Assembly (NCBI GenBank): GCA_031254385.1
Contig: JAIRUO010000012.1
Coordinates: 1 to 11,181, forward strand
DNA: 11,181 nt
Direction: 5' to 3'
DNA from: Treponema sp.
GTDB lineage: Bacteria; Spirochaetota; Spirochaetia; Treponematales; Breznakiellaceae
Both the position numbers and the translations under genes were made by a program. Numbering within the stretch: position 1 is the stretch's first letter; each line of letters begins with the position of its first letter. Under the pieces are notes generated by a model. That model did not search any database. It saw nothing but the letters and a program-made list of their open reading frames with translations, and had not been told where the DNA came from. This document shows positions 1 through 11,181 of this stretch, piece after piece.

Positions 1-305
1 GCTAAGATATCCGGCTCTGCGGCAAACATATTGGAAAGGGCTGAACCGGTATTAATATCCCCGGCATCAACGAGAAGCACATTGGGAAAAGTCGCTTTTA
101 TCCCCTTGACATAAGCGGCGAGTTCCGCAAGTCCGCCCTGACCGCCATTGGGAAGAACCGCCCCGTGGTGATCATTGGTATGGAGCAGTATAAGCTCTTG
201 TACCTGTGACCGGGCGTTTACGTCTGCTACCGGTGATGCAAATAAGGCATTCCCGCTGACAAAAAGGAATACCGAAAGTAATAAAAACATTCCTATCCGT
301 TTCAT
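1..305 (-). CDS. 5'-nucleotidase / metallophosphatase (UshA family), N-terminal part
   Basis: The first 101 residues are visible and the gene runs off the left edge. Residues 1-25 form a signal peptide (MKR, a hydrophobic stretch, then LFA before SPVAD), so the protein is exported. The mature start shows two hallmarks of the UshA-type calcineurin-like phosphoesterases: HTNDHHG, with metal-binding Asp and His, and DAGDINTGSALSN. Family members hydrolyse nucleotides or 2',3'-cyclic nucleotides in the periplasm or at the cell surface; which substrate applies here cannot be seen. There is no lipobox Cys, so it is probably not a lipoprotein. The start is supported by AGGAGG at 319-314, 8 nt before ATG. 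The family assignment is firm, the substrate is not. Confidence 0.9.
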   Translation of the reverse strand, partial: MKRIGMFLLLSVFLFVSGNALFASPVADVNARSQVQELILLHTNDHHGAVLPNGGQGGLAELAAYVKGIKATFPNVLLVDAGDINTGSALSNMFAAEPDIL

Positions 306-335
306 TCCTGAAACCTCCTTTAATTTTATGGGTTG

Positions 336-364
336 AGTATATATCTTTACCCTGGTTTTGTCAT
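336..364 (-). promoter_or_regulatory. Promoter of the 5'-nucleotidase gene
   Basis: ATGACA (364-359), a 17-nt spacer and TATACT (341-336) on the minus strand, about 30 nt upstream of the AUG and followed by a strong Shine-Dalgarno sequence. This is an ordinary sigma-70-like promoter with a normal leader, unlike the leaderless genes elsewhere in the window. Confidence 0.5.
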
Positions 365-406
365 GGGGAATTCAACAGCGTGCGTCAAATATTAATTAAA
401 AACCGG

Positions 407-683
407 TTAAAAATTCTTCCTCAAGAACGCAAGCACTTCCGCGCCAGAAGGCGGACAGCCAGGGCAGGAACAGGCAAATCCGGCAGTGCAGCGGCCTATT
501 CCCATCGAACCTTTTTTGTTCAAAAAGTCCTAGCCTATGCAGACAGGTTCTTTAATCCGCGCTAATCCGCCGCCCATGCAGGATAGGGCGGAAACCAGAG
601 CCTTCAAGGATCACAATATTATTAAAACCTTGTTTTTGCAGATACGCGATTATTCCCGTTTTTCCATGATGAATAGTATAGGG
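407..683 (-). pseudogene. Decayed Cys-rich reading frame, possibly a former Fe-S protein
   Basis: This fills most of the gap between the nucleotidase and the nitroreductase. On the minus strand one frame (683 to about 600) reads PYTIHHGKTGIIAYLQ and then a segment ending NNIVILEG. Shifting frame near 600 gives a coding-like stretch with SCMGGGLARIKEPVCIG, an in-frame TAG at 532-530, then GRCTAGFACSCPGCPPSG and a tail ending LRKNF with TAA at 409-407. The Cys pattern (C-x4-C-x-C-x2-C) suggests a metal or Fe-S cluster site. At least one frameshift and one stop separate the pieces, so I read it as a relic. The parent family was not recognised; the similarity of the first piece to a rhodanese loop is weak. 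Confidence 0.4.
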
Positions 684-730
684 GACTAGGGAGTAGGGAG
701 TAGGATTTTCTATATCCTAAATCCTATCCC
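681..730. repeat. Short tandem repeat and hairpin upstream of the nitroreductase
   Basis: Tandem copies of a GGGAGTA-like heptamer at 681-704 run into an inverted repeat. GGGA, a bulged G and TAGGATTT (696-708) pair with AAATCCTATCCC (719-730) around a 10-nt loop, giving a 12-bp stem with one bulge. It ends 19 nt before the TATAAT of the nitroreductase promoter, so it could be a regulatory site or a small dispersed repeat. No function can be assigned. Confidence 0.45.
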
Positions 731-749
731 TTTAATCCTTCTTCCATGC

Positions 750-755
750 TATAAT
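750..755 (+). promoter_or_regulatory. -10 element of the nitroreductase gene (leaderless start)
   Basis: A perfect TATAAT lies 6 nt before the ATG at 762, so transcription should start at or next to the A of the start codon. No Shine-Dalgarno sequence is present. The expected -35 position (727-732, TCCCTT) is poor and lies in the right arm of the hairpin upstream. Confidence 0.5.
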
Positions 756-761
756 CTGTAT

Positions 762-1514
762 ATGAATGAAATCATCAAATGCTTGTTTGATCGCAAATCG
801 GTCAGGCAGTATGAGGCGCGGCCTATTCTGCCGGAAGATAAAACCCTTATCCTGCAGGCGGCCTTGCAGGCGCCAACTGCCGGAAACCAGAACCTGTATA
901 CAATACTTGACATTACCGATCAAGCGCTCAAGCAGCAGCTTTCGGTGTACTGCGACAACCAGCCGTTTATCGCGCAGGCTCCGTTGGCCCTGGTGTTTTT
1001 GGCCGACTGCCGACGCTGGTATGACAGCTATCAAATGGCCGGCCTTGAAGCCCGTCCACCTGAGGAAGGCGATCTGCTTCTGGCAATTGCCGATGCGGTA
1101 ATAGCCGCTCAGAACACGGTTGTCGCCGCTGAATCGCTAGGTATAGGTTCCTGCTATATAGGCGATATTCTGGAACGCGAGGAAGATCTAAGAAAGGCGC
1201 TAGCATTAGACGATGTGGTGTTTCCCGCAGCTTTTGTGGTTTACGGCTATCCCACGGCAAATCAGAAGGAACGGAAGAAGCCACTTCGCCCGCCTCTTAC
1301 CTCCATAGTGCAGGAAAACCAGTACCGCCGCTTGACTGAGGCAGAACACAAAGATTTGTTTCTAGCCAAGGGAAATATCAAGCATGAGGACGGGTTCAAG
1401 GAATACATGACGGCCTTTTGCACCCGTAAATACATGAGTGATTTTGCCAAAGAAATGAACCGTTCCGCCAGGCGTTACTTAAAGCATTTTAGGCGCCGAT
1501 CAGAATCGAACTGA
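762..1514 (+). CDS. Nitroreductase family protein (FMN-dependent, NfsA/Frp-like)
   Basis: This 250-residue protein has the expected layout of FMN nitroreductases that reduce nitro compounds, quinones or flavins with NAD(P)H. It shows RKSVRQYEARP at residues 12-22 (phosphate-binding Arg/Ser), APTAGNQN near 37-44, SLGIGSCYIGD near 124-134 and KKPLRPPL near 172-179. The long C-terminal helical segment (EYMTAFCTRKYMSDFAKEMNRS) is typical of the larger NfsA-like members. The start follows TATAAT by 6 nt and has no ribosome binding site, so the mRNA is probably leaderless. The last eight codons, including the stop, lie antisense within the tRNA-Cys gene. It is a single plus-strand gene, convergent with its right neighbour. 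The physiological substrate is unknown. Confidence 0.9.
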   Translation: MNEIIKCLFDRKSVRQYEARPILPEDKTLILQAALQAPTAGNQNLYTILDITDQALKQQLSVYCDNQPFIAQAPLALVFLADCRRWYDSYQMAGLEARPPEEGDLLLAIADAVIAAQNTVVAAESLGIGSCYIGDILEREEDLRKALALDDVVFPAAFVVYGYPTANQKERKKPLRPPLTSIVQENQYRRLTEAEHKDLFLAKGNIKHEDGFKEYMTAFCTRKYMSDFAKEMNRSARRYLKHFRRRSESN

Positions 1515-1562
1515 TGCATAAAGGTTTTGCAGACCTCTCCCTTACCGCTTGGGTACGGCGCC
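1491..1562 (-). tRNA. tRNA-Cys (anticodon GCA)
   Basis: The full cloverleaf can be drawn on the minus strand in 72 nt. The acceptor stem is GGCGCCG with CGGCGCC, the D-arm contains AAGCGGTAA, the anticodon stem is GAGGT/ACCTT with loop CTGCAAA, and the T-arm is ATCAG-TTCGATT-CTGAT. The discriminator is U, as expected for tRNA-Cys. CCA is not encoded. The 3' 24 nt overlap the end of the nitroreductase gene on the other strand. Confidence 0.96.
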
Positions 1563-1616
1563 AGTATTCATTACTAGGTTAACCAAAAAAGAGAGTTTTG
1601 TCTAGGGGCAAAAACC

Positions 1617-1640
1617 AAAAAAAACGGCTCCTGCGGGCCG
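1617..1640 (-). terminator. Probable intrinsic terminator after the flagellar switch operon
   Basis: On the minus strand, 30 nt after the FliG-like gene, CGGCCC-GCAG-GAGCCG forms a GC-rich stem with one C-A mismatch, followed directly by eight T residues (1624-1617). It would separate the operon from the downstream tRNA-Cys. Confidence 0.55.
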
Positions 1641-1669
1641 GAACGGGGAAATCGGCGCATTGATCATGG

Positions 1670-2254
1670 TTACGTTTGCATTCTAACCTTGATTCTTGTC
1701 TTGATTTCTTCGGCGAGTTCCGGATCTTCTTCTTCCAAAGCCTTAATAATCTGCTCAGAGTTATAGCCAACTAAATTGAGGATTTCAGCGGCACTTTCCA
1801 CTCCTCCAGCATCATACATAGATTCGCTGGAAAGGGCTGATAATTTTATTTCAAGCACACGTTCAATTTCTCGAATAATTTCCGGAGAAGTACGATCCAT
1901 GCAAGCAATACGTCTTGTTACATCGCTTTGTATTTTATTGGGCAGATTTTGTAAAATAACCGAGGCTTTACTTGATTCAAGATGGGCAAGGATAAGAGCG
2001 ATAACTTGCGGGTGTTCCTGCTGGATAAGATCTAACAGGTATAACGGCTCAACACGACTGATATAATCGAAGGGCTTGTATTGAGTATTTTCATCGTCTT
2101 CGGGTGATTTTTCTTCTTTCCCCTTTGTTTCTCCTTGCGACTCCGAAATCCTAGCCAGTAGGTCATTTTTTGTTTTTATAACAAAACGAACGATTAAAAG
2201 TGATGTTACGAGCCATATCAGAATAAAAGATATTCCAATGATAACATTGACCAT
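1670..2254 (-). CDS. Membrane-anchored FliG middle-domain protein (lacks FliG N and C domains)
   Basis: This is a 194-residue protein. Residues 4-26 form one hydrophobic helix followed by RFVIKTK, which predicts a cytoplasmic C-terminal part. A charged linker (about 27-60) leads to a clear FliG middle domain at about 65-190, with the diagnostic EHPQ at 80-83, then VIALILAHL, LPNKIQSDVTRRIA, GGVESAAEILN and a tail ending EEIKTRIKV. In FliG this domain contacts FliM. The reading frame stops (RMQT) where normal FliG enters the C-terminal torque domain, and the N-terminal FliF-binding domain is replaced by the membrane helix. It starts 1 nt after the FliM-FliN stop, with GGTAGG inside that gene as ribosome binding site, so translation is probably coupled. 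MgtE_N-like proteins are related, but the EHPQ context is FliG. It may be a specialised adaptor or a degenerate duplicate; motor function is not established. Confidence 0.85.
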   Translation of the reverse strand: MVNVIIGISFILIWLVTSLLIVRFVIKTKNDLLARISESQGETKGKEEKSPEDDENTQYKPFDYISRVEPLYLLDLIQQEHPQVIALILAHLESSKASVILQNLPNKIQSDVTRRIACMDRTSPEIIREIERVLEIKLSALSSESMYDAGGVESAAEILNLVGYNSEQIIKALEEEDPELAEEIKTRIKVRMQT

Positions 2255-2255
2255 T

Positions 2256-3575
2256 TTAACCTACCTTTACTTGCGAAGATTCATCTGTTGATTTATCGGA
2301 TGATTGACCAGAAGGCTTAGCGGAGGAATCGGTGGGGGCGATGAGCTCGGTAATCCTTACCCCAAAATTTTCATCAATAACAACAACTTCACCATAGGCA
2401 ATAAGGATTCCATTAGCTTTTACATCCACTAGTTCCCCTGCCAATTTATCAAGTTCAACAATTGTTCCTTCACCCATGCCCCGGACTTCTTTTACAGTTT
2501 TTACCGTGGTTCCGATTTCGACAGAAATTGTCAGCCCTACATTTGACAGGGCATCATCTACGAGTGGATTAACTTTACTCTGTTCCATTTTCTTTCCCTC
2601 CATTTCGAATGGTTTATCCGTAACGCCAATGATTTTGACGCATTTAGCGAACCGTTTATTATCAGGCAATATTTCGCATTGCCATACCCGCCTATCTCCA
2701 AACCATAAAAAACAATGGTCAGGACTAAGAGGGCGCGAAGGCAATAGTTCTGTCCCAATTTCCCATTCTCTTATTTCTTTGATTGAATAATCTCGCCTTA
2801 ATACTTCGGCAGTTATTATTACAGGAACATCCTCTGGTTCAATCTTTCCAGAAGGATGTATTACACTACCGTACCAGAAAGCTGGAAAAAATTTCCCCAT
2901 AATAGGCTCTACGGTACTGTAAGGTATACAAAAATTGATCATGCCCTCGACATCACCAACCTTGGTTTCTAAAGTAATCAAGACTGTCATCATAGTAGGC
3001 GGTACAATCTGGACAAATTGAGGGTTAGTATCAATTTGCTGTAAGCGAGGCCGCAGATCAATTACCTCAGTCCACGCCTCCCTTAAATTTCCCAGTATAC
3101 GAACAATAATGCCTTCCATAATGTTCTGTTCAATATCGGTCAGTTCATGCTGTGATTTCGTTCCCTCTCCAATTCCGCCGCAAATTCGATCAATAATGGA
3201 AAAAGTTATATCTGGGGCAATTTCAAGGATAGCAGATCCCTTGAGAGGGTCCATATTAATAATTGCCAGTGTCGTTGGCGTAGGAATGGATCTGATAAAT
3301 TCTTCATAGGTAAGCTGATCTACAGAGGCAACGTGAACATGACACATGGAACGGAGTTGGGCTGAAAGGCTATTGGTAGTCATACGTGCAAATGTCTCGT
3401 ACATTATTGAGATAGTGCGGATCTGTTCTCTGGAGAATTTGTCAGGACGCTTAAAGTCATAGATTTTGATCTTCCGGCTGCCGGGCTCTGGTTTGAAATT
3501 CTGAGGTTTGGTATGCCCGGCATTTATGGCGGCGAGAAGTTGATTTATTTCTTCCTGCGATAATACTTCAGTCAT
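2256..3575 (-). CDS. FliM-FliN fusion flagellar motor switch protein
   Basis: This protein has 439 residues, about 100 more than treponemal FliM. Residues 1-17 hold the CheY-P-binding helix (LSQEEINQLLAAI). Residues about 40-232 are the FliM middle domain, with FKRPDKFSREQIRT, the FliG-contact GGIG loop at 133-136, and NFCIPYSTVEPIM. Residues about 248-318 look like a SpoA-type domain but differ strongly from ordinary FliM after position 235. Residues about 345-412 are a textbook FliN domain (LTISVEIGTTVKTVKEV, GTIVELDKLAGE, GEVVVIDENFGVRITE). The tail after 415 is Ser/Lys-rich. AGGAG lies 9 nt before ATG. Fusing FliM to FliN fixes a 1:1 ratio in the C-ring. It is first in an operon with the membrane-anchored FliG fragment. 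It could be a second switch set beside canonical copies elsewhere. Confidence 0.92.
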   Translation of the reverse strand: MTEVLSQEEINQLLAAINAGHTKPQNFKPEPGSRKIKIYDFKRPDKFSREQIRTISIMYETFARMTTNSLSAQLRSMCHVHVASVDQLTYEEFIRSIPTPTTLAIINMDPLKGSAILEIAPDITFSIIDRICGGIGEGTKSQHELTDIEQNIMEGIIVRILGNLREAWTEVIDLRPRLQQIDTNPQFVQIVPPTMMTVLITLETKVGDVEGMINFCIPYSTVEPIMGKFFPAFWYGSVIHPSGKIEPEDVPVIITAEVLRRDYSIKEIREWEIGTELLPSRPLSPDHCFLWFGDRRVWQCEILPDNKRFAKCVKIIGVTDKPFEMEGKKMEQSKVNPLVDDALSNVGLTISVEIGTTVKTVKEVRGMGEGTIVELDKLAGELVDVKANGILIAYGEVVVIDENFGVRITELIAPTDSSAKPSGQSSDKSTDESSQVKVG

Positions 3576-3595
3576 TTTTTACTTCTCCTCTTTAT

Positions 3596-3623
3596 ATTAT
3601 ACAGATAAATTAAAATTTATCAA
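3596..3623 (-). promoter_or_regulatory. Promoter of the FliM-FliN / FliG-like operon
   Basis: TTGATA (3623-3618), a 16-nt spacer and TATAAT (3601-3596) on the minus strand, followed by AGGAG (3589-3585) and ATG at 3575. This is an ordinary housekeeping-type promoter; it lacks the 38-bp palindromic unit and begins 30 nt after the truncated small-protein stub. Confidence 0.65.
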
Positions 3624-3652
3624 GCCATATTTCGTTATTTTTATCAATATCT

Positions 3653-3727
3653 TCAAGAGAGGGCATCCCACAGCTTTTGTACGTCCTCTTTTGTTCCCAT
3701 TACGTTGATAATTATGTTTGCGCTCAT
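3653..3727 (-). pseudogene. Truncated third copy of the small-protein family found at 5130-5860
   Basis: A strong GGAGG precedes ATG, and the 24-residue product (MSANIIINVMGTKEDVQKLW, then DALS and a stop) matches the starts of the two downstream paralogues, which begin MTTNVIINAMGTKEDIQKL and MSGNVTIFASGIKEDIQKLW. The match ends where those proteins continue with EPNKY. The copy therefore appears cut at its 3' side, next to the promoter of the flagellar operon. It lies 29 nt downstream of the HNH gene and would be co-transcribed with it. It is probably a recombination stub, although a 24-residue peptide could still be made. Confidence 0.75.
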
Positions 3728-3756
3728 AGATTCCTCCATTTGTCCGGTATAAGCGG

Positions 3757-4698
3757 CTATCGGTTTGCATGTATCACATTTATTAAACTGGATATAATGA
3801 TTTGCACAATTTCTTTTTTGCATTTCTCATATTTTTCATCAAAGGATAAATCAATTTCAAATTCGTCTTTATCCTTATTGAATTTGACCGTATCTTTTAA
3901 TATACCATTTTCTATCATGTCCTTATAGAAATCATAAATATTTTCTTTTCTATATTTTATATCCTTTTTTAAGAGATGAAGTACATTTCCAGTTTGCATT
4001 ATTGATATTAAATTGGTCGGTATCTCATCTGAAAATTTTAGTTCATCATAGAAATAAATTTTATATTCTCCAGCTTTTATATCATATTCTTTGCCTTCTT
4101 GATAAAAGCCAACACATTTAATTCCTGTTTCTTTTATGTCTCCTTTTAGTTTATTTATTCCATCGTATATATATGAAATCTCATTTGTTGAAGTTTTACA
4201 TAACAATATGCTAAGAACGGGTCCAATTTGAATACAAAATCCATTTATTTTCATAAAGGGATGTATTTTTTTATGCTGCGTTTCTGTAACCCAGAGTAAA
4301 TTTTCTTTTCTGTTGTCATATCCATTATTGGATATATGATGAACTTGATTATAAAAGTCCATATTAGGGTTTTCACACCATGTTTCTGCGACAAGCCTAT
4401 AAACTTTTTCACGCCTTTTAGTTCTTATGCTAGGAATGTCTACATATAAATTTTCATCATCAGTAGGAATATATTGTGGAAGAATCTTTTCCCCCGATCT
4501 TACTCGTCCCAAACTACTGACTTCAATATTTTCCTCTTTGGGGTGGTTTTTGAATACTTCCCCTTCAATTTCCCCAAAATTCTGATTGGCACAAATAGCA
4601 ATACCGTTTATTTCAGGTTTTTTATATGGTTTTACCAACTCTGTGGCCTTTCTTTTCAATTCGTCAATAGATAAATCTGTCAACCATTTAATGCTCAT
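3757..4698 (-). CDS. HNH endonuclease-like protein with NUMOD4-type N-terminal region
   Basis: This is a 313-residue, AT-rich gene. Residues about 55-68 (NIEVSSLGRVRSGE) match the NUMOD4-like motif that precedes HNH nucleases of homing or phage type. YRLVAETW at 100-107 is followed by the catalytic HNH segment, QVHHISNNGYDNRKENLLWV and TETQHKKIH (118-146), with H120/H121, N130/N133 and H142 as likely active-site or metal residues. The C-terminal 160 residues were not recognised; they are rich in Lys, Glu and Ile. AGGAG lies 7 nt before ATG, and the gene is driven by a copy of the 38-bp palindromic promoter. The nuclease fold suggests DNA cleavage, either as a selfish element or in defence; target and role are unknown. 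Confidence 0.8.
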   Translation of the reverse strand: MSIKWLTDLSIDELKRKATELVKPYKKPEINGIAICANQNFGEIEGEVFKNHPKEENIEVSSLGRVRSGEKILPQYIPTDDENLYVDIPSIRTKRREKVYRLVAETWCENPNMDFYNQVHHISNNGYDNRKENLLWVTETQHKKIHPFMKINGFCIQIGPVLSILLCKTSTNEISYIYDGINKLKGDIKETGIKCVGFYQEGKEYDIKAGEYKIYFYDELKFSDEIPTNLISIMQTGNVLHLLKKDIKYRKENIYDFYKDMIENGILKDTVKFNKDKDEFEIDLSFDEKYEKCKKEIVQIIISSLINVIHANR

Positions 4699-4719
4699 TT
4701 ATGCTCTCCTCATGAATAG

Positions 4720-4757
4720 ATTATACCACGCTTACTCTATCAAATAGCGATAGGGTG
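4720..4757 (-). promoter_or_regulatory. 38-bp palindromic promoter unit, copy 1 (HNH gene)
   Basis: Read on the minus strand: CACCCTATC, a 6-nt centre (GCTATT), TGATAGAG, then 9 nt, then TATAAT (4725-4720). An A-rich tract lies upstream. Similarity to copy 2 continues past the -10 (CTATTCATG versus CTATTTATG), suggesting that the whole promoter region was duplicated. The -35 position falls in the palindrome centre and is not TTGACA-like. Confidence 0.8.
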
Positions 4758-4777
4758 AAGATTTTTTTTTGTTTTCA

Positions 4778-5127
4778 TCATAATACTAATTTATTGAGTG
4801 AAGCCTTTACTTGGATTTTCAGTTCCTCAGGAACATATTGAAACACCCTGCCGTACACTGTTTCAAGGCGTATTTTCGTTGTCTTGAATTCGTCAGGTAT
4901 GGACCCTAATAGCTCATTAAGTTCATTTTCAGTTAAAGTACCTTTATCAGGTACTCTTGATAATTTTTCTTTTTCTTCTTCAACCTATTTTCTTAAAGTA
5001 TCATTAAAAGCATCTTGTTTTACTGCTTCAAGACACAACTCCGCTGTTTTAGTTCGCCAGGGACATAGTTGAGCGCCAGGCCATACTGCCGCACTGCTTC
5101 AAGGCACATTGCTTCAGTTATTATTAC
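4778..5127 (-). pseudogene. Broken DUF4116-type repeat gene
   Basis: Translation from about 5127 gives TVIITEAMCLEAVRQYG and ALNYVPGELK, resembling the start of the repeats in the intact gene at 5931-6461. One base is missing near 5047-5051; restoring it gives TAELCLEAVKQDAFND. A TAG at 4987-4985 then interrupts the frame. The rest reads VEEEKEKLSRVPDKG, PDEFKTTKIRLETVYG, FQYVPEELKIQVKASLN and ends with TGA at 4780-4778. It abuts the stop of the 5130-5417 gene, and its 5' end is fused to that gene, so a deletion probably joined the two. It is non-functional as it stands. Confidence 0.75.
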
Positions 5128-5129
5128 GG

Positions 5130-5417
5130 TTATACTGCCATTTCTTTGACATCAAAATAGATTCTGACAAACATACTCAATACAGGAAAATCAGTGTATA
5201 GGTCTTTGAAGTCGTTCTTGCCAACATCTTTTGGCATTTTGTCCGTTTCGCCTTTTGCTTCCCATAGGGGGAACGTCGTACTTTCAACGGGATGGATGCT
5301 GTTACAGTCAAGTCTGATACCTGTTTCGTTGTATTTATTTGGTTCACAGAGGGTGTCAAACAGTTTTTGTATGTCCTCTTTTGTTCCCATTGCGTTGATT
5401 ATTACGTTTGTGGTCAT
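5130..5417 (-). CDS. Small protein of unknown family, truncated paralogue
   Basis: This is a 95-residue product. Residues 1-45 (MTTNVIINAMGTKEDIQKLF, EPNKY, GIRLDCNSIHPVE) align with the 141-residue neighbour (MSGNVTIFASGIKEDIQKLW, EPNKY, GIKLDRNSVHPLE), as does NDFKDLYTDFPVLS with NDFNDLYADFPALS. The copy ends EMAV and a stop where the longer one continues EMTVRWVGPD, so the last 40 or so residues are missing. The start lies 17 nt after the neighbour's stop, with only a weak GGAAG ribosome binding site. The layout (an N-terminal beta strand, a helix, Asp-rich segments) loosely recalls Api92-like/YubB ferredoxin-fold proteins, but I would not assign that. It may be a functional short form or a decaying duplicate. 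Confidence 0.65.
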   Translation of the reverse strand: MTTNVIINAMGTKEDIQKLFDTLCEPNKYNETGIRLDCNSIHPVESTTFPLWEAKGETDKMPKDVGKNDFKDLYTDFPVLSMFVRIYFDVKEMAV

Positions 5418-5434
5418 GGATCACTTCTTCCATC

Positions 5435-5860
5435 TCAAGCTTTGGTTAGTGCCTCTACTATTTTATCACACCATTCACGGTCTTCAGGGGTTAAAAATGA
5501 ATCGTAATTATATATATTAACTTTCCCTGATGGTGGAGTAGGCATATCTGGACCAACCCAACGAACAGTCATTTCTCCATCTACCGAATAGACCGAATAG
5601 ATATATATCTTAATACTTAATGCAGGAAAATCAGCGTACAGATCATTGAAATCATTTTTTTTTAATAGTTCTTTCGGCATATTGACCGTTTCGCCTATCG
5701 CTTCCCATATGGGACCTTCCGGTCCTTCAAGAGGATGAACGCTGTTACGGTCAAGTTTGATGCCGATTCCACCGTATTTATTCGGTTCCGAGAGGACATC
5801 CCATAGCTTTTGTATGTCCTCTTTTATTCCACTTGCGAAGATAGTTACATTCCCACTCAT
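5435..5860 (-). CDS. Small soluble protein of unknown function (full-length paralogue)
   Basis: This 141-residue protein has no signal peptide or membrane helix and is the complete member of a three-copy local family. It has an N-terminal strand-helix (NVTIFASGIKEDIQKLWDVL), EPNKYGGIGIKLDRNSVHP, EGPIWEAIGETVNMPKE, DLYADFPALSIKIYIY and a C-terminal TPEDREWCDKIVEALTKA. The pattern of alternating strands followed by a Trp-containing C-terminal helix could fit a ferredoxin-like fold such as Api92/YubB proteins of plasmids and phages, but this is a guess. GGGAG lies 11 nt upstream of ATG (moderate). It is first of a set (this gene, then the 95-residue copy, then the broken DUF4116 gene) downstream of palindromic promoter copy 2. 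Confidence 0.75.
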   Translation of the reverse strand: MSGNVTIFASGIKEDIQKLWDVLSEPNKYGGIGIKLDRNSVHPLEGPEGPIWEAIGETVNMPKELLKKNDFNDLYADFPALSIKIYIYSVYSVDGEMTVRWVGPDMPTPPSGKVNIYNYDSFLTPEDREWCDKIVEALTKA

Positions 5861-5882
5861 AAATTCTCGCTCCCATAAATAG

Positions 5883-5920
5883 ATTATACTATGCTCACTC
5901 TATCAAATAGCGATAGAGTG
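5883..5920 (-). promoter_or_regulatory. 38-bp palindromic promoter unit, copy 2 (5860 gene)
   Basis: Arms CACTCTATC and GATAGAGTG are perfectly complementary over 9 bp around a 7-nt centre (GCTATTT). Nine nt after GATAGAG comes TATAAT (5888-5883). An A8 tract lies just upstream. This is the best-formed copy together with copy 4. Confidence 0.85.
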
Positions 5921-5930
5921 AAATTTTTTT

Positions 5931-6461
5931 TCATGTTCTTATGGTAATATTATACATGGCTTTAATCGCCTTAATCATTTCTGTTGTCATAAGATCATCA
6001 GGAATATGCTCAAGTGCCGAGATGTTCTGCTTTACTGCCTCAAGACACAGTTCTACCGTTTTAAGCCTATCAGGAACAAATTCCAGCGCAGAGCCATTCT
6101 GCTTAACTGCTTCAAGGCACAGTTCCACTGTTATGAGTTTGTCAGGTACATGGTTGAGCGCCCAACCGTTCTGCTTAACCGCCTCAAGACACAGTTCCGC
6201 TGTTTTAAGGCGGTCAGGAACATATTCAAGGGCTTCTCCGTCCTGCTTCACTGCCTCAAGGCACAGTTCTGCTGTCTTGAATCTGCCAGGGACATATTCA
6301 AGCGCCATGCCGTTACGCTGCACAGCGGCAAGGTATGTTCTTTCGGGCATTATTATCGTTTCGGGTGCAGGCTTTAGCGGTTCTAGTTTATCGTAAATGC
6401 TTTTCAAGTTTTCTGGTAGAAGGTTAAGTTCTTTATGTATGGTTATTTTTTTATTGTCCAT
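5931..6461 (-). CDS. DUF4116-type tandem-repeat protein
   Basis: This is a 176-residue protein. Residues 40-159 are five tandem 24-residue units with the pattern (A/V)ELCLEAVKQ-(N/D)G-x-ALE-(Y/F)VPD-(R/K)L-(K/I)T, as in DUF4116 repeat proteins, which probably form stacked helical hairpins for protein binding. The N-terminal 39 residues (MDNKKITIHKELNLLPENLK and onward) lead into the repeats. There is no signal peptide or membrane segment, so it is cytoplasmic. The start has no Shine-Dalgarno sequence; TAAACT of palindromic promoter copy 3 lies 6 nt before the ATG, suggesting a leaderless mRNA. A broken relative lies at 4778-5127. The function of DUF4116 repeats is not established; they are common in large multi-copy families. 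Confidence 0.8.
   Translation of the reverse strand: MDNKKITIHKELNLLPENLKSIYDKLEPLKPAPETIIMPERTYLAAVQRNGMALEYVPGRFKTAELCLEAVKQDGEALEYVPDRLKTAELCLEAVKQNGWALNHVPDKLITVELCLEAVKQNGSALEFVPDRLKTVELCLEAVKQNISALEHIPDDLMTTEMIKAIKAMYNITIRT
5985..6344 (-). repeat. Five 72-bp tandem repeats inside the DUF4116 gene
   Basis: Five in-frame units of 72 bp (24 codons) are similar at DNA level, for example the recurring plus-strand string GCCTCAAGACACAGTTC and its variants. The period invites copy-number change by slippage or unequal recombination without loss of frame. It also explains why the opposite strand stays open here. Confidence 0.85.
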
Positions 6462-6467
6462 TAATAC

Positions 6468-6505
6468 AGTTTAGCATGGGTGCTGTATCATATATTGATA
6501 GGGTG
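6468..6505 (-). promoter_or_regulatory. 38-bp palindromic promoter unit, copy 3 (DUF4116 gene)
   Basis: A divergent copy: CACCCTATC, centre AATATAT, GATACAG, exactly 9 nt, then TAAACT (6473-6468), 6 nt before ATG. The arms have mismatches, but geometry and -10 spacing are unchanged. Confidence 0.65.
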
Positions 6506-6604
6506 GGCATGATTTTTAGATTTTTGCGCCCTTTCCTACATGGAATTGCGCTTAAGGCTTTGAGTAACTAAAGGCGTAAATATTGTTATAGCCTGATCTG
6601 AACA

Positions 6605-7312
6605 CTAAAAATCAAATTCTAGGCTGATGGGGCAATGGTCGGAACCGTTCCAGCGTTTTTGTCCATAATCATTTACTTCCCATTTATTATGAACATGAAA
6701 TTTTACACCAGCAAACAAGTTTTCAGAAACAAAACAAAAATCATTAAGATACTCTTTGTTTCCTCTGTTATGATAAAAAGTCGTTATAAATTCTTCCGGT
6801 TTTCCCAAAGAACTATTCTTAAAGTCTTTTAAGTTTTCAAGCAAATCGGAATAATATTTTTCAGTCTCCTTCGTATTTTCATTATATCCAGTGTTAAAAT
6901 CACCAATAATAATGACATTACCTTTAAGAAACTCTTTTGTTTTGTAGTATTCAATAGCTTGAACAACATTTTTGTCATAATATTGTGGAACTGGCTTTGT
7001 CCAAACTGCAAATAAAGTCAAGAACTTTTCTCCCTTAGAAACTATATAAGGGACAACATATCTGAATTTACGGTTAAATTCGTCAGAGAACCCAATTTTA
7101 AATTCTTTTGAAAAAACGGCAATTCCCAAGTCGCTATATTCTTGATCATCTCCATACCAGTTTTTAAATTTCCAATCACACTTAAAAGCATCTATGTCTG
7201 TTCGTCTACATTCTTGAATGACAAAAATATCTGCATCCGAAAATGCTTCATAGATTTTTTTAGCTTTTATTTCATTTAATCCATTCCTGCAATTCCAACT
7301 CACAATCTTCAT
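6605..7312 (-). CDS. Endonuclease/exonuclease/phosphatase (EEP) family protein
   Basis: This 235-residue protein has all core motifs of the ExoIII/DNase I-like fold: WN at 6-7, the metal-binding Glu in VIQE (E34), GDFN at 137-140 (D138, N140), LNDFCFVS (D191) and the terminal SDH at 224-226 (GSDHCPISLEF). Family members cleave phosphodiesters in DNA, RNA or phospholipids, or act on small phosphorylated molecules; the substrate cannot be read here. At 235 residues it is compact, near ExoIII length. No signal peptide is present, so it is cytoplasmic. AGGAG lies 7 nt before ATG, and it has its own conventional promoter rather than the palindromic unit. It sits among AT-rich accessory genes, which may suggest a horizontally acquired DNA-processing or defence enzyme, but that is inference. 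Confidence 0.87.
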   Translation of the reverse strand: MKIVSWNCRNGLNEIKAKKIYEAFSDADIFVIQECRRTDIDAFKCDWKFKNWYGDDQEYSDLGIAVFSKEFKIGFSDEFNRKFRYVVPYIVSKGEKFLTLFAVWTKPVPQYYDKNVVQAIEYYKTKEFLKGNVIIIGDFNTGYNENTKETEKYYSDLLENLKDFKNSSLGKPEEFITTFYHNRGNKEYLNDFCFVSENLFAGVKFHVHNKWEVNDYGQKRWNGSDHCPISLEFDF

Positions 7313-7353
7313 GATTTTTCTCCTAATTTGTTCAAAACCCGTTTTCCCTATTT

Positions 7354-7382
7354 ATTATACTATGTCTCCAAATATTTGTAAA
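7354..7382 (-). promoter_or_regulatory. Promoter of the EEP-family gene
   Basis: TTTACA (7382-7377), a 17-nt spacer and TATAAT (7359-7354) on the minus strand, with AGGAG at 7324-7320 and ATG at 7312. This is a conventional sigma-70-like promoter with no palindromic unit. Confidence 0.7.
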
Positions 7383-7430
7383 GTAGTTTTTCTCTTACTA
7401 TTTCTCAGCTTTTTCCACACCCATCTTCCT

Positions 7431-7796
7431 TTAATGGCATGTCGGCAGAAGAAATGTTATACAAGAATAAGAATTCAATACGGAATAAACCAAGTAGTGG
7501 TCTAAACCCCAATGAATCAGATGAACCGCCACTTTTTGAATATTTTTCAATATAATCAGATATTCATCTTTTTCCTGTTCTATAATATCTGAAAGTTTTT
7601 TTTCAATTATTTCCCCATTGATTCCATTAACAACAAGGCGCAATCCAATTTGAAATATATCCCTTTCGTCATCAGTCCTTTCTTGATCTAATTGATCTAA
7701 CAATGGTAACAAGCCTTCTCTTCTGGCTTTCCCACCATACTGCAGGGAGCGCTGTACAATTTCAGTATATTTTTTCACAAATTCGTCACGGGTCAT
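7431..7796 (-). CDS. Small MotA-loop-like protein of a flagellar-type operon, C-terminus probably altered
   Basis: This is a 121-residue soluble protein. The motif KARREGLLPLLDQLD (23-37) followed by DIFQIGLRLVVNGINGEIIEKKLSDII (46-72) resembles the cytoplasmic loop of MotA (KARREGLL, then a GLxLVVDG segment), but the MotA membrane helices are absent. GGGAGG precedes ATG, and the start overlaps (ATGA) the stop of the FliG C-terminal relic, supporting a former motility operon. The last residues (SCITFLLPTCH) look unlike the rest. An alternative frame just there reads SADMPLKEDGCGKS and a stop, so a small indel may have replaced the native tail. I am confident that it is coding and only moderately confident of the motor link. 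Confidence 0.65.
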   Translation of the reverse strand: MTRDEFVKKYTEIVQRSLQYGGKARREGLLPLLDQLDQERTDDERDIFQIGLRLVVNGINGEIIEKKLSDIIEQEKDEYLIILKNIQKVAVHLIHWGLDHYLVYSVLNSYSCITFLLPTCH

Positions 7797-7909
7797 TCTG
7801 TGGTTCCTCCCTTTGAATAAGGAATAATAATTTCACCAGTACTTTCTAAATCATGGATAATTCTTAATATTTTTTTTTGCACTTTTATAACGTCTGCTAG
7901 CAGAACTGG
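7793..7909 (-). pseudogene. FliG C-terminal relic (last 38 residues)
   Basis: The frame from 7909 to the TGA at 7795-7793 encodes PVLLADVIKVQKKILRIIHD, then LESTGEIIIPYSKGG. This matches the end of FliG (GPVRL-x-DVEEAQQ-x-IV, then LE-x-x-GEIVI). The rest of the FliG C-terminal domain is missing: upstream in frame there is a TAA at 7915-7913. In the adjacent frame, ATG AAA AGC ATA (from 7925) may be the remains of the preceding FliG segment after an indel. A GTG start at 7934 with an upstream AGGAGG would give a 27-residue peptide in that other frame (7934-7851). The stop overlaps the start of the MotA-loop-like gene, as in an intact operon. It is probably non-functional. Confidence 0.7.
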
Positions 7910-7954
7910 CTCTTATGCTTTTCATAGTGCCCACAAAAATGCCTCCTGCAATAC

Positions 7955-7992
7955 ATCCTATAACACCCACTCTATCATATAGCGATAGAGTG
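7955..7992 (-). promoter_or_regulatory. 38-bp palindromic promoter unit, copy 4 (FliG-relic operon)
   Basis: Perfect arms CACTCTATC and GATAGAGTG with centre GCTATAT, then 9 nt from GATAGAG to TAGGAT (7960-7955), which is a poorer -10. It is followed by AGGAGG and the GTG at 7934, and would drive the FliG relic and the MotA-loop-like gene. Confidence 0.75.
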
Positions 7993-8076
7993 AATATACT
8001 TTATTCAATCAACAATGCTTTTTCCCGCTGAACTAAAAAAGTGTTTCTTACCATACCTCTTCCAAACCATTCCTAA

Positions 8077-8289
8077 TCATTTCAAAATGCCGAAGTAATA
8101 CATTCCACCCTTACACACAATACGGTATTTCCACACTTCCGGTATATGTCTTTCAGTCGGCCTGACTTGATATTGTTCAAACATTGATAACTTCTCTTGA
8201 TGTACCTTCATTGTCTGATTAAAATGTATGTTAATACTATTCTTCATTTCTTCCAGTGTTGGAGTGTCAAATAGTATGTCAAGTTCCAC
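8077..8289 (-). CDS. Hypothetical 70-residue protein
   Basis: Not recognised. It starts at GTG, with AAGGA about 8 nt upstream, and encodes a mostly helical N-terminal half (LEEMKNSINIHFNQTMKVHQ), followed by RPTERHIPEVWKYRIVCKGG and MYYFGILK. There is no signal peptide or membrane helix. It lies downstream of palindromic promoter copy 5 with a leader of about 50 nt. Good translation signals and an upstream regulated promoter argue that it is expressed. It could also be the trimmed N-terminal part of a longer ancestor. Toxin, antitoxin or regulator roles are possible but unsupported. Confidence 0.5.
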   Translation of the reverse strand: MELDILFDTPTLEEMKNSINIHFNQTMKVHQEKLSMFEQYQVRPTERHIPEVWKYRIVCKGGMYYFGILK

Positions 8290-8344
8290 TGATAAATCCT
8301 TTTAATTATCCTGTGTCCTGTAAGCACTTTTTCCGATATAACAA

Positions 8345-8382
8345 ATTCTACCACACCCACTCTATCATATAGCGATAGAGTT
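8345..8382 (-). promoter_or_regulatory. 38-bp palindromic promoter unit, copy 5 (8289 gene)
   Basis: Arms AACTCTATC and GATAGAGTG with centre GCTATAT, then 9 nt from GATAGAG to TAGAAT (8350-8345). The segment between palindrome and -10, and the -10 itself (TGGGTGTGGTAGAAT), is identical to copy 6. Confidence 0.8.
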
Positions 8383-8394
8383 AAAAGAAAATAT

Positions 8395-8493
8395 AACCAC
8401 GGAGTACACGGAGTTTCACAGAGGAAGAGGAAGAAAACTAATTAAAACTCCAAGTTGACCTACGGTCAGCAGTTCTCTGTGTCCTCCGTGGTT
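8395..8493. repeat. Nested inverted-repeat element, about 100 bp
   Basis: Outer arms AACCACGGAG (8395-8404) and CTCCGTGGTT (8484-8493) are perfect complements. CACAGAG (8417-8423) pairs with CTCTGTG (8475-8481), and a central hairpin GTTGACC-TAC-GGTCAGC spans 8454-8470. The ACCACGGAG/CACAGAG wording resembles a small dispersed element seen in many unrelated bacterial genomes. It lies between divergent genes and could fold in RNA or DNA. It accounts for most of the 8383-8604 gap; I see nothing else there. Confidence 0.7.
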
Positions 8494-8604
8494 CATCTTC
8501 TCGGGCATCCCTATATCTAAGCCGATGACAAATATAATCCGACCAATTTTAAGCCAATAGAGAGTACATTAACAAACACCCCCATTCCTTATTCCCTATC
8601 ATCC

Positions 8605-8633
8605 TTGCGTAAAAATGGAAAACATGGCATACT
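8605..8633 (+). promoter_or_regulatory. Promoter of the GNAT-like gene pair (leaderless)
   Basis: TTGCGT (8605-8610), a 17-nt spacer and CATACT (8628-8633), followed by 6 nt and the ATG at 8640. There is no Shine-Dalgarno sequence. Spacing predicts transcription from the A of the start codon. Confidence 0.6.
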
Positions 8634-8639
8634 CAAAAC

Positions 8640-9164
8640 ATGGAGCTTGATTTTGAAATAGACAAAATCACAGAATCAATCGAAAACGCCGAGACTGGTG
8701 AAACGCTTGATACCCTTGTCCTGCCCGTAACAAAGGCCGATTTGGAGGAAATAACTAAAAAGAATGGCTGGCTTTTTGACTGGAAACTGGAGTTTTCTGA
8801 ACCCGAAAAACAAGTGTATAAACTTATTGCCAGACAGGAACCGCAAACCATACACGGTATGGTATCGCTTGAAAAATTGAAGGATCATGTGCTTATGCAC
8901 CTAATAGAAAGTGCGCCGTACAACATCGGCAAAGAAAAGAAATATCTTGGAGTATGCGGTAACTTGACCGCTTTCGGCTGTAAATTATCGAAAGAGTCAG
9001 GTTTTAACGGAGTTATCGCTTTCGTCCCGAAAACCGCCCTTATCCCCCATTACCAAAAAACGCTTGGGGCAGTACTTATAAGCGAGCGAAGAATGGTTAT
9101 TTTTGAAAAAGATGCACAAGTCTTACTGGATAAATACTTTCCCGAAACGGAGGTAAAATTATGA
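8640..9164 (+). CDS. GNAT-like acetyltransferase-fold protein
   Basis: This is a 174-residue protein. The C-terminal half contains a segment typical of small GNAT-like proteins: KKYLGVCGNLTAFGCKLSKE, SGFNGVIAF, then ALIPHYQKTLGA at about 132-150 (the motif resembling the His-Tyr-x-Lys-x-Gly-Ala end of the acetyl-CoA-binding region). The N-terminal 65 residues (acidic, containing TKADLEEITKKNGWLFDW) were not recognised. The start lacks a ribosome binding site but follows CATACT by 6 nt. It overlaps the next gene by 4 nt (ATGA), so the two are coupled. A pair of GNAT-like protein and small partner could be a toxin-antitoxin or modification pair, but the partner here lies downstream and shows no DNA-binding motif. 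Fold call moderate, activity unproven. Confidence 0.7.
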   Translation: MELDFEIDKITESIENAETGETLDTLVLPVTKADLEEITKKNGWLFDWKLEFSEPEKQVYKLIARQEPQTIHGMVSLEKLKDHVLMHLIESAPYNIGKEKKYLGVCGNLTAFGCKLSKESGFNGVIAFVPKTALIPHYQKTLGAVLISERRMVIFEKDAQVLLDKYFPETEVKL

Positions 9165-9358
9165 TATGGTTAGATACAAAAGAAGAAGTAGACTTTGACT
9201 GGTTTATGGAAGTCCTAAGAAACAATGAACTACAGGTTGTCAGCAGAAAATGGACTCAAGAAGAAAAAGAAGAACTGTCAAGGCAAATCGCCGAGTATAA
9301 AGCAATGCGGCAAGAAACCGTTTCCACGGAAGCGGTTTTGGTAACGCCTGGCAGTTGA
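9161..9358 (+). CDS. Small 65-residue partner protein
   Basis: Not recognised by family. It starts within the last codons of the GNAT-like gene (ATGA overlap), so translational coupling is likely. The sequence has an acidic N-terminal part (MIWLDTKEEVDFDWFMEVLR), a charged helix (KWTQEEKEELSRQIAEYKAM) and a flexible tail. It is acidic overall and soluble, which would suit a small binding partner or antitoxin-like protein, but nothing proves this. A hairpin lies in its last codons, and an orphan palindromic promoter (copy 6) points into its 3' end from the other strand. Confidence 0.6.
   Translation: MIWLDTKEEVDFDWFMEVLRNNELQVVSRKWTQEEKEELSRQIAEYKAMRQETVSTEAVLVTPGS
9316..9340 (+). terminator. 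Hairpin in the 3' end of the 65-residue gene, weak terminator candidate
   Basis: AACCGTTTC (9316-9324) and GAAGCGGTT (9329-9337) form a 9-bp stem with one T-G pair, a 4-nt loop and a short T run. It lies inside the coding sequence. A second tiny stem, CAGT-TGAC-ACTG followed by five T (9352-9368), overlaps the stop. Either might end transcription. Confidence 0.3.
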
Positions 9359-9389
9359 CACTGTTTTTATCTATACACTTTAACAAATT

Positions 9390-9427
9390 ATTCTACCACA
9401 CCCACTCTATCAAATACCGGTAGACTG
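9390..9427 (-). promoter_or_regulatory. 38-bp palindromic promoter unit, copy 6 (orphan, antisense)
   Basis: The left arm is degraded (CAGTCTACC, with centre GGTATTT), but GATAGAGTG is intact and TAGAAT (9395-9390) keeps the 9-nt spacing. No minus-strand gene follows; transcription would run antisense into the 65-residue and GNAT-like genes. It begins 12 nt beyond the stop of the WYL gene. It may be a leftover from a lost gene or an antisense promoter. Confidence 0.6.
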
Positions 9428-9438
9428 AAAAATATTCC

Positions 9439-10428
9439 TCACTTTTTTGCCGATTTTGCCCTTTTCTGCATATCCAAGAGATTCTCCCGCCAATCCTTGA
9501 CCAATTCCGCTGGTTCCAAAGGCAAGGCATCCCTGCCGTTTGACAAGACAAGCTCCAACACCTTGCCGTATTGGGTGCTGGAAAACTCTAGGATTACGCC
9601 GTCTTCGGTTTCTTTTATGCGCTGATCTGCGGCCCAGAGGCGTTCTTGAACCCGCATTGCCCCGTCATTGTAAAAGGCGATGCGGAAGCGAAATTTCTTT
9701 TGGCCTGAGTATGCGCCAAAGTAGCTGCCGCCCAATTGGGCGCAGAAATCGGCGGAGGCAGGGAAACTAAAGGTTCCGTTTTCAAGGCTGATGTTCTTTA
9801 TGCGGGAAAGCGAATACATTCTAACTCCCCGGCCTTCTATCGAGTGTGCGTAGATATACCATGCGCCGTTATCAAAAAGAAGCTGATAGGGACGAATGCG
9901 GCGTGGAGTGTAGCCGCTTTTCCATGTGCTGCGGTAATCAAACCTTAAAACGCGGTTTTTTTGCAGCCCTTCGCAGATGCATTGCCATACTTCCGGGGCA
10001 AATTGGACTAAAGGCACTTCTGGAACAATGATGCGTTCATCGTACCAATGGGAGTTTTCCGCCTCTCCCAGAGGCGCGGTAATGGTTTCCACAAGATCCT
10101 TAGCGGCATCGTATATCGGGGTGTTCCGGTACAGGGAAAGAAGGTTCTTCGCCATGCCCAGGGCCATGATGCCTTCGACCGAGCCAAAAGTGCCAGGGAG
10201 CCGGAATGTTTTTTCGGTGTAGTAATAGCCCTTCTGCGTATAATCGTATTTAATAGGGGCGGATAGCCAATCACGCATGAGTTCGATGTCCCTGCTGATG
10301 GTAGCGGTTCCGGTTTTATATTTTTCTGCCAGAGTTGTGGTATTTGGATATTTCCCCGAAGCTATTTCCTCATCAATAAAGAAAATCCGGGGCAGAGCGG
10401 TTCTTGGTATGCTTTTACGATCTTTCAT
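9439..10428 (-). CDS. WYL-domain transcriptional regulator (wHTH-WYL-WCX)
   Basis: This protein has 329 residues from the chosen start. Residues about 12-66 are a DeoR/YafY-like winged helix (TTLAEKYKTGTATISRDIEL, recognition helix about 41-52; the wing contains YDYTQKGYYY). Residues about 156-213 are the WYL domain, with RPYQLLFDNGAWYIYAHS (W190-Y191-I192) and RMYSLSRI, the pocket that binds nucleic acid or nucleotide ligands in characterised members. Residues about 245-325 are the WCX C-terminal extension (FRIAFYNDG, QERLWAADQR). An ATG 30 nt upstream is possible but lies within the palindrome, upstream of the -10, so I chose 10428. TATACT is 6 nt before that ATG, implying a leaderless, autoregulated mRNA. 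It is the only transcription factor in the window and the prime candidate to bind the seven palindromes. Confidence 0.9.
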   Translation of the reverse strand: MKDRKSIPRTALPRIFFIDEEIASGKYPNTTTLAEKYKTGTATISRDIELMRDWLSAPIKYDYTQKGYYYTEKTFRLPGTFGSVEGIMALGMAKNLLSLYRNTPIYDAAKDLVETITAPLGEAENSHWYDERIIVPEVPLVQFAPEVWQCICEGLQKNRVLRFDYRSTWKSGYTPRRIRPYQLLFDNGAWYIYAHSIEGRGVRMYSLSRIKNISLENGTFSFPASADFCAQLGGSYFGAYSGQKKFRFRIAFYNDGAMRVQERLWAADQRIKETEDGVILEFSSTQYGKVLELVLSNGRDALPLEPAELVKDWRENLLDMQKRAKSAKK

Positions 10429-10434
10429 GCTTAT

Positions 10435-10472
10435 AGTATAGCACAATAAGTCTATCATTTAGCGATAGAGTG
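10435..10472 (-). promoter_or_regulatory. 38-bp palindromic promoter unit, copy 7 (WYL regulator)
   Basis: CACTCTATC, centre GCTAAAT and GATAGAC, then 9 nt and TATACT (10440-10435), 6 nt before the regulator's ATG. An A7 tract (10492-10486 on the minus strand) lies upstream. The position suggests autoregulation. Confidence 0.8.
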
Positions 10473-10519
10473 GAAAGATTCTTTTTTTGTTGTTCCCTCA
10501 ATGTAAATACTTTTAGGGC

Positions 10520-11181
10520 CTAGCTCTTACCCTTATCATAAGGCTGCCCCACAGCTCGGGGAGCGTAATCTTTGCCGCTAAAAATGACCAGGGTAATAAG
10601 GGTGATAAAATAGGGCATGGCGCTGAAAATTTCCGAAGGCAGAGCCCTCAAAGCAGAAATATTAATAATATTGACTGCCAGCGCAGAGGAAGCGCCAAAG
10701 AGAAAACTCGAACCAAGTATACCCAATGGCATCCAGCGGCCAAAAGAAACAGCGGCCAGGGCGATAAAGCCTTTTCCGTTAATGGAAGTAACGGTGAACT
10801 GTATGTCCTGGGTCAGCACAACGCAGGCGCCTGCAATCCCCGCAAGGATTCCAGAAATAAGTACGGCAATATAGCGGATTTTTATGACATTGACACCGGC
10901 GGAAGCTAAGGCTTGGGGATGTTCGCCGGCAGCCCTTAGGCGGAGGCCCCATGGCCTTTTGTATAGCATAAAGGCGGCAAGGCCCAATATGATAAAAGCC
11001 ATCCAAGCGGTGGGATAGATGCCGCCTATCCATGCCTTCATCCCCATCTGGTAATTCTGGCTCCTGTCCATGCGGAAGAAAAGCTGACAGACAAAAACCG
11101 TTAGGCCGTTGGCAAGGAGGTTGATCCCAGTTCCAGAGATGACTTGATCCGCCCGGAGCGTTATCGAAGCAAAGGCATGTA
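10520..11181 (-). CDS. ABC transporter permease, BmpA-type nucleoside uptake (NupQ/YufQ-like), 3' part
   Basis: The frame is open to the right edge, so the N-terminus is missing; about 220 residues are visible. The opening ASITLRADQVISGTGINLLA and then RPWGLRLRAAGEHPQALASAG and KIRYIAVLISGILAGIAGA are signatures of the second permease (BPD_transp_2, LivH/RbsC-like) of BmpA-dependent nucleoside ABC importers. Several hydrophobic helices are evident (for example TAWMAFIILGLAAFMLY and YFITLITLVIF). Such genes normally end an operon of lipoprotein, ATPase and two permeases, which would lie upstream, beyond the window. A purine nucleoside substrate is plausible from the family; the exported 5'-nucleotidase at the other end of the window would fit salvage but is not linked to it. 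Confidence 0.9.
   Translation of the reverse strand, partial: HAFASITLRADQVISGTGINLLANGLTVFVCQLFFRMDRSQNYQMGMKAWIGGIYPTAWMAFIILGLAAFMLYKRPWGLRLRAAGEHPQALASAGVNVIKIRYIAVLISGILAGIAGACVVLTQDIQFTVTSINGKGFIALAAVSFGRWMPLGILGSSFLFGASSALAVNIINISALRALPSEIFSAMPYFITLITLVIFSGKDYAPRAVGQPYDKGKS

Follow-up and report, generated by a model that had tools for sequence, protein, structure and literature searches.

We propose, with a little better than even confidence, that seven copies of a palindromic promoter unit in an 11,181-nt stretch of Treponema sp. DNA (contig JAIRUO010000012.1, positions 1 to 11,181; the whole of this stretch is called the window below) are the operator-promoters of a WYL-domain transcription regulator. 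The regulator is encoded at 9439–10428 on the minus strand, and it would switch on both its own gene and the island to which the units belong. An earlier note, made from the letters of the window alone, had described the units and taken them for operator-promoters joining unrelated accessory genes into one regulon. Both parts of that reading gain support from comparison with relatives, where the geometry is kept at WYL promoters and the same palindrome recurs before genes that neighbor the WYL gene. The earlier note did not identify a regulator, and it saw neither the covariation linking the palindrome to the WYL protein nor the likeness of the units to promoters of DriD, a WYL activator of Caulobacter. 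A literature search over titles and abstract openings of open-licence papers returned no account of the element.

The Seven Units of the Window

Each unit is a palindrome of the form CTCTATC-N7-GATAGAG followed by a TANNNT hexamer. All seven lie on the minus strand, and the positions and layout reported for them earlier hold in every case (7/7). Numbered in the direction of reading, unit 1 (10435–10472; CTCTATC/GATAGAC, 9 nt, TATACT) is the putative operator-promoter of the WYL gene. It is followed by unit 2 (9390–9427; GTCTACC/GATAGAG, TAGAAT), unit 3 (8345–8382; TAGAAT), unit 4 (7955–7992; TAGGAT), unit 5 (6468–6505; CCCTATC/GATACAG, TAAACT), unit 6 (5883–5920; TATAAT) and unit 7 (4720–4757; CCCTATC/GATAGAG, TATAAT). 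The arms are perfect in units 3, 4 and 6, have one mismatch in units 1 and 7, and have two in units 2 and 5. In units 1 and 5, an ATG stands 6 nt past the hexamer. At up to three mismatches, the palindrome matches the window eight times, at the seven units and at one three-mismatch site at 3910, while 0.33 matches (standard deviation 0.55) are expected by chance and none of 200 shuffles gave as many as eight. If the hexamer is taken as the −10 box (−12 to −7), the proximal arm covers −28 to −22, the center −35 to −29 and the distal arm −42 to −36.

The WYL Regulator

The regulator, P0001, is a WYL-WCX winged helix-turn-helix (HTH) protein of 329 aa. Its WYL (5.4e-15) and WCX (1.5e-6) matches are above the Pfam cut-offs, and the structure model (mean pLDDT 72.8) contains the helix-turn-helix with a wing. 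The start is most likely the ATG at 10428, which gives the 329 aa of P0001; an alternative reading frame of 339 aa begins within the palindrome. The gene thus read is apparently leaderless, with unit 1 as its own promoter. The recognition helix reads T41 A42 T43 I44 S45 R46 D47 and spans residues 41–53 in the model, with residue 42 at the helix start. The top matches of the model in a structure search are chains of DriD, BrxR, CapW and PafBC, and the best sequence matches are PafBC chains. The DriD structure 8tp8 gave a profile match with an E of 6.4e-4, ranked under PafBC, CapW and BrxR, and its structural Z score is tied with theirs. The basic groove of the WYL domain, with residues assigned by eye through an alignment to PafBC chains, is conserved: R176, R203, R209, W190 and Y191 are each present in at least 90% of 57 sequences. 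The lineage is present in 164 genomes out of the 390 searched in the order (E ≤ 1e-30), and those relatives of P0001 that bear names come from Treponema and Spirochaetia. The termite gut is the habitat of T. primitia.

Covariation of Residue 42 with an Operator Base

The third base of the GATAG half-site changes with residue 42 of the recognition helix. The table of WYL genes and their own operators holds 37 loci with S, I or N at residue 45, with bases entered by hand; genes lacking an operator in register, L097 with its broken helix, and rows in which residue 45 is Y, H or C were excluded, and the base for L095 was taken from its downstream sites. Among the 34 loci with A or S at 42, A42 goes with GATAG in 20/20 and S42 with GACAG in 13/14 (Fisher 1.5e-8, a value inflated by shared ancestry); the other three, with P or I at 42, all have T and were left out of the test. 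On a FastTree tree that leaves out the HTH columns (support untested), residue 42 requires 5 changes, the base 6 and the joint labels 6, so at least 5 of the 6 changes coincide. These change counts are the safer figure.

The same pairing is found at sites beyond the regulator's own promoter. When each such site is assigned to the nearest WYL gene with S45 or I45, the counts are A–T 24/24, P–T 4/4 and S–C 9/10; sites nearest to a WYL gene with Y, H or another residue at 45 are not in this table, and one G190 palindrome in it is counted in its second orientation. With N45 and C45 added, the counts become A–T 28, A–C 1, S–C 13, S–T 1 and P–T 5. The sole exception to S–C (G163_C2 17112) lies 9 kb from its WYL gene, and a P42 paralogue shares its contig, about 5 kb off on the other side. 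Since the base tracks residue 42 both at own and at other sites, the WYL protein is very probably the binder of the palindrome. A similar code was sought for residue 45, and it fails in distant members.

In L097, the locus of the broken helix, a stop occurs in the recognition-helix region of the WYL gene (near 1078), and the operator-promoter is intact.

Geometry and Occurrence in Relatives

It is from comparison among relatives that the palindrome, its near-fixed geometry, the covariation just described and the local multiplicity of sites emerge, and the genome-wide counts given here refer to the relatives' genomes. In a set of 111 loci retrieved only through WYL homology, with each palindrome read in both orientations, CTATC-Nn-GA[TC]AG occurs as 68 oriented sites at n = 7, and no other n between 3 and 11 gives more than 7. 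Past the palindrome in the same loci, TATA[ACT]T stands at offset 8 in 16 cases, at offset 9 in 5 and at any other offset in at most 3. The palindrome-to-hexamer spacing had been called invariant at 9 nt; this is exact within the window (7/7) and gives way in the relatives to 8 or 9 nt, and once to 7 (L098). The earlier note also saw no TTGACA-like −35 box. In a set of 64 promoters that includes loci retrieved by the composite pattern of palindrome plus −10 (the 111-locus set excludes these), the best TTGACA match at 16–18 nt is 4/6 once and at most 3/6 in the rest. TGn is present in 35 of the 64, and a G at −14 is present at 18 of 30 promoters.

The loci analyzed contain 79 non-redundant WYL genes, two of them without upstream DNA. 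A loose operator expression with a spaced −10 is found upstream of 32 of the remaining 77, as compared with 1.7% of random windows. By identity to the WYL protein of the window, it is present in 6/6 at 55% or above (the window's own included), 15/37 at 45–55% and 11/34 at 33–45%; a strict expression gives 6/6, 11/37 and 10/34 in the same bins and 1.1% of random windows. Among the 45 WYL genes missed by the loose expression, some bear a recognizable variant, such as CCCCATC-N7-GATTAAC with a Y45 helix, and the remaining ones have no operator-like site upstream.

The reverse approach starts from the palindrome. A scan of genome contigs for the palindrome alone gave 21 stretches, three of them titled Treponema. 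In two of these (L008 and L014), the palindrome forms the promoter of the WYL gene; in the third (L019), there is a WYL homologue of 32% identity, but it stands some 2.6 kb away from the palindrome and not behind it. The other 18 genome-contig stretches, and five more from viral contigs, look like chance. The genome-wide pattern search that the earlier note had proposed was run on the relatives. In G045 (4.06 Mb), the composite pattern is present at four places, which share a strand and fit inside 7.7 kb; the first of the four is the promoter of the WYL gene itself. At up to two mismatches, the palindrome alone adds two sites in that genome, at 2770512 (without an in-register −10) and at 4043144. 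Over 195 genomes of the family, the composite pattern gives 26 matches in 18 genomes, and a reversed control pattern gives 4. Seventeen of the 26 are within 15 kb of a listed WYL match, and nine are on contigs without one. Two near-identical operators with a −10 on contigs without a listed WYL match (G090:C125:4694 and G059:C143:468) are possibly unlinked targets.

Island Organization

In the window, the WYL gene leads, and the six further units lie behind it on the same strand. G045 is laid out in the same way, with its WYL gene at 300,859 and five more same-strand sites 1.9 to 11.9 kb downstream; further sites behind a WYL gene number two in G025 C28, three in G025 C94 and four in G164 C337. 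G025 contains both an island with A42 and GATAG and one with S42 and GACAG. G045 has a second WYL paralogue (A42, H45) whose own operator, TTTAGCANTCNATGACAAACC, occurs four times on one strand within 6.4 kb and, at up to three mismatches, nowhere else in that genome. In G125 C64, the sites are on both strands, and several loci have one extra site. In the distant members L193, L194, L198, L199, L225 and L226, there is an opposite-strand site 34–63 nt upstream. An automatic scan covered 66 loci and assigned an operator to 38, with some assignments of poor quality (e.g., G079, G082 and G045_2422k); an extra same-strand site is present in 19 of the 38 called loci and in none of the other 19.

Proposed Mechanism and Alternatives

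In the mechanism we propose, a WYL dimer would bind the 7-N7-7 palindrome at about −42 to −22, with its half-sites flanking the place of the −35 box. The WYL domain would sense a signal which, by analogy with DriD and PafBC, may be single-stranded DNA from damage or infection. The signaled protein would then hold sigma70 RNA polymerase on promoters that have no −35 box, so that its own gene and the island genes would be switched on together. We infer the dimeric binding, the choice of activation over repression, the signal and the −10 assignment. Given that the WYL protein is the binder, we lean modestly towards an activator, because the geometry matches that of DriD, unlike that of BrxR or CapW.

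Three observations weigh against this proposal. First, the −10 boxes are strong and many have TGn, which favors repression. Second, the residue-42 rule is broken by the own operators of three loci with Y45 or H45 (L135, L077 and L091); the rows with Y, H or C at 45 that are consistent with the pairing of alanine and T are L083, L104, L202, L197, L229, L230 and L085. Third, at a loose threshold, the automatic scan finds 37 extra same-strand and 23 opposite-strand sites versus 20.5 for permuted operators on both strands. What we say of island architecture rests on the high-scoring loci and the targeted counts, not on that total.

In the alternative that survives best, the same WYL dimer acts as a repressor: it would shut off strong extended −10 promoters by sitting over −42 to −22, and release by a ligand would derepress the island, in the manner of BrxR and CapW. 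We regard this as possible, with a probability clearly short of even. It would account for the near-consensus −10s and the frequency of TGn, it agrees with the autoregulation reported for CapW, and some of the relatives' islands contain defense-type genes as does that of BrxR. A pure repressor would nonetheless have no need of a −35-less promoter or of a near-fixed spacing, and neither the 11-5-11 repeats of BrxR nor the −10-overlapping palindromes of CapW resemble the layout of the units.

It is improbable that the units were simply copied as DNA, whether as promoter cassettes, recombination sites or a small repeat element, with a geometry that reflects only shared descent. A repeat search of the window does group the seven as one 58-nt family with 66–88% identity to its reference copy, and the copies share letters in the center (GCTATWT) and spacer (TGGGTGTGG), but in G045 and other genomes, those letters vary while the lengths are kept, and the operator base tracks the residue of the local WYL protein. 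No integrase or transposase family appears among the 40 proteins scanned with Pfam, a scan that included no search aimed at them. In comparison with integron cassettes, the site here is tied to promoters, and the scanned proteins include no integrase, with no dedicated attC or integrase search made. Least probable is a reading of the units on the plus strand, as terminators or RNA hairpins: plus-strand T-runs do follow the copies at 4720 and 5883, but the palindrome precedes the −10 and is not part of the WYL and DUF4116 transcripts, which look leaderless. In addition, most copies adjoin island genes of the minus strand, and an Rfam scan of the window yields only a tRNA.

Beyond activation by the WYL protein in the window, we tentatively suggest, with somewhat less than even confidence, that the Treponematales have islands of modular build, every one led by a WYL gene with private operator letters, that new accessory or defense modules join an island by gaining its operator-promoter, and that a single genome can thereby contain several islands, insulated from each other, which fire as units in a DriD-like fashion without a −35 box. 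WYL-controlled islands are already known; what is new here is the seven operators and the private regulator–operator pairs. The analysis proposes, for this WYL lineage, a regulator, a readable operator and a one-residue/one-base code, and the paralogous WYL–operator pairs offer a natural series on the function of −35-less promoters and the insulation of islands. If activation is true, the DriD mechanism would extend from single targets to whole islands.

Genes of the Islands

Unit 2 has no clear gene behind it. It is antisense to plus-strand frames at 8640–9358, and the only same-strand frames within 300 nt behind it have 48 and 42 codons. The second gene of that plus-strand pair has a weak addiction-module match (TIGR02574, below cut-off). 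The other units precede minus-strand genes. Unit 3 precedes a 70-aa frame at 8077–8289 that has no Pfam match. Unit 4 precedes a 121-aa frame at 7431–7796, for which the earlier note had proposed a FliG relic operon; it has no Pfam match and only a partial, weak NCBIfam match to a MotA-type stator (E 2e-5, far below cut-off), and the protein with a FliG middle domain is the one at 1670–2254. Unit 5 precedes a DUF4116 repeat protein (Pfam) of 176 aa at 5931–6461, apparently leaderless with its ATG at 6461. Unit 6 precedes a 141-aa protein of unassigned family at 5435–5860, with a paralogue at 5130–5417 and a fragment near 3653. Unit 7 precedes a 313-aa HNH/homing-endonuclease-like protein at 3757–4698 (Pfam HNH_3 20.4 bits, below cut-off; PADLOC HEase 5.4e-7). 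An endonuclease/exonuclease/phosphatase-family protein inside the island (6605–7312, minus strand, 1.7e-7) has no unit directly in front; in the G045 island, two proteins match related families more weakly, with scores below cut-off. Among six window proteins submitted to PADLOC, one matches a homing-endonuclease model, one weakly matches a candidate model (0.0047) and four have no match.

Loci of relatives appear to carry defense-type genes, as judged from single-domain matches that are not proof of defense. They include GmrSD, PDC-S26 and SduA_C-like proteins (L150), dynamin/LeoA-like GTPases (L138), IetA-like AAA proteins (L095 and L148), DEDDh exonucleases (L088, L148 and L212) and, in G045, a nucleotidyltransferase-HEPN pair. 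Some of the defense-type genes have no unit directly in front. The G045 island also contains an FlhA paralogue at 304.8–306.7 kb, the main FlhA being at 1,326,646.

Several further features were noted. DUF4116-type repeats at 4816–5130, where no minus-strand frame of at least 50 aa is listed, probably mark a gene that has decayed between units 7 and 6. At the island's far end lie a FliM-FliN-like protein (2256–3575) and the FliG-middle-domain-only protein, in which an apparent membrane segment precedes the domain. Relatives, too, have flagellar paralogues: the FlhA paralogue of G045 and an N-terminal piece of FHIPEP in L095. A tRNA-Cys gene (1491–1562) adjoins the region. In L212, a frame at 3652–4392, about 10 kb from the WYL gene, resembles an IS3-type transposase by eye.

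Comparison with Known WYL Systems

BrxR, the WYL repressor of a BREX island, likewise acts at a defense island through more than one inverted-repeat site (R-BOX1 and R-BOX2). Its repeats are 11-5-11 (or 10-5-10) at two sites, the first set downstream of the predicted −10 and the second upstream of PbrxA, unlike the 7-7-7 arrangement here, which places the units outside the BrxR pattern (PMC9122601). CapW, the WYL repressor of CBASS, is a homodimer that binds a palindrome of 19–24 bp and regulates itself, features paralleled here by a predicted dimer, a palindrome in the same range of lengths and a site at the regulator's own promoter. The CapW palindrome overlaps the −10 in one shared promoter region, whereas the palindrome here ends 8–9 nt upstream of the −10, so the units do not follow the CapW pattern either (PMC9122588).

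The mycobacterial activators PafBC and SiwR bind between −35 and −10, a position like that of the units, and PafBC is reported to act by sigma adaptation, with something similar suggested for SiwR (PMC11804915, PMC10693628). PafBC chains are also the closest in sequence to P0001. They differ in that PafBC is a heterodimer with a −26 motif and SiwR has a single 19-bp imperfect palindrome serving one operon (PMC11804915, PMC10693628).

The closest promoters are those of DriD, whose sites, ATACGAC-N7-GTCGTAT, cover the −35 place and keep a single distance to the −10, with 1–2 of 6 matches to a −35 box and a conserved G at −14; the targets named are didA, bapE, recJ, dnaG and the operon beside driD (PMC12340889). 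The units have other half-site letters and near-consensus −10s, and here it is the regulator's own promoter and those of its neighbors that bear the site. They agree with the DriD promoters in the 7-bp arms and 7-bp center, in being centered on the −35 place, in a near-constant distance (8 or 9 nt) to a predicted −10, in the poor −35, in the G at −14, and in the related WYL fold of the regulator (PMC12340889).

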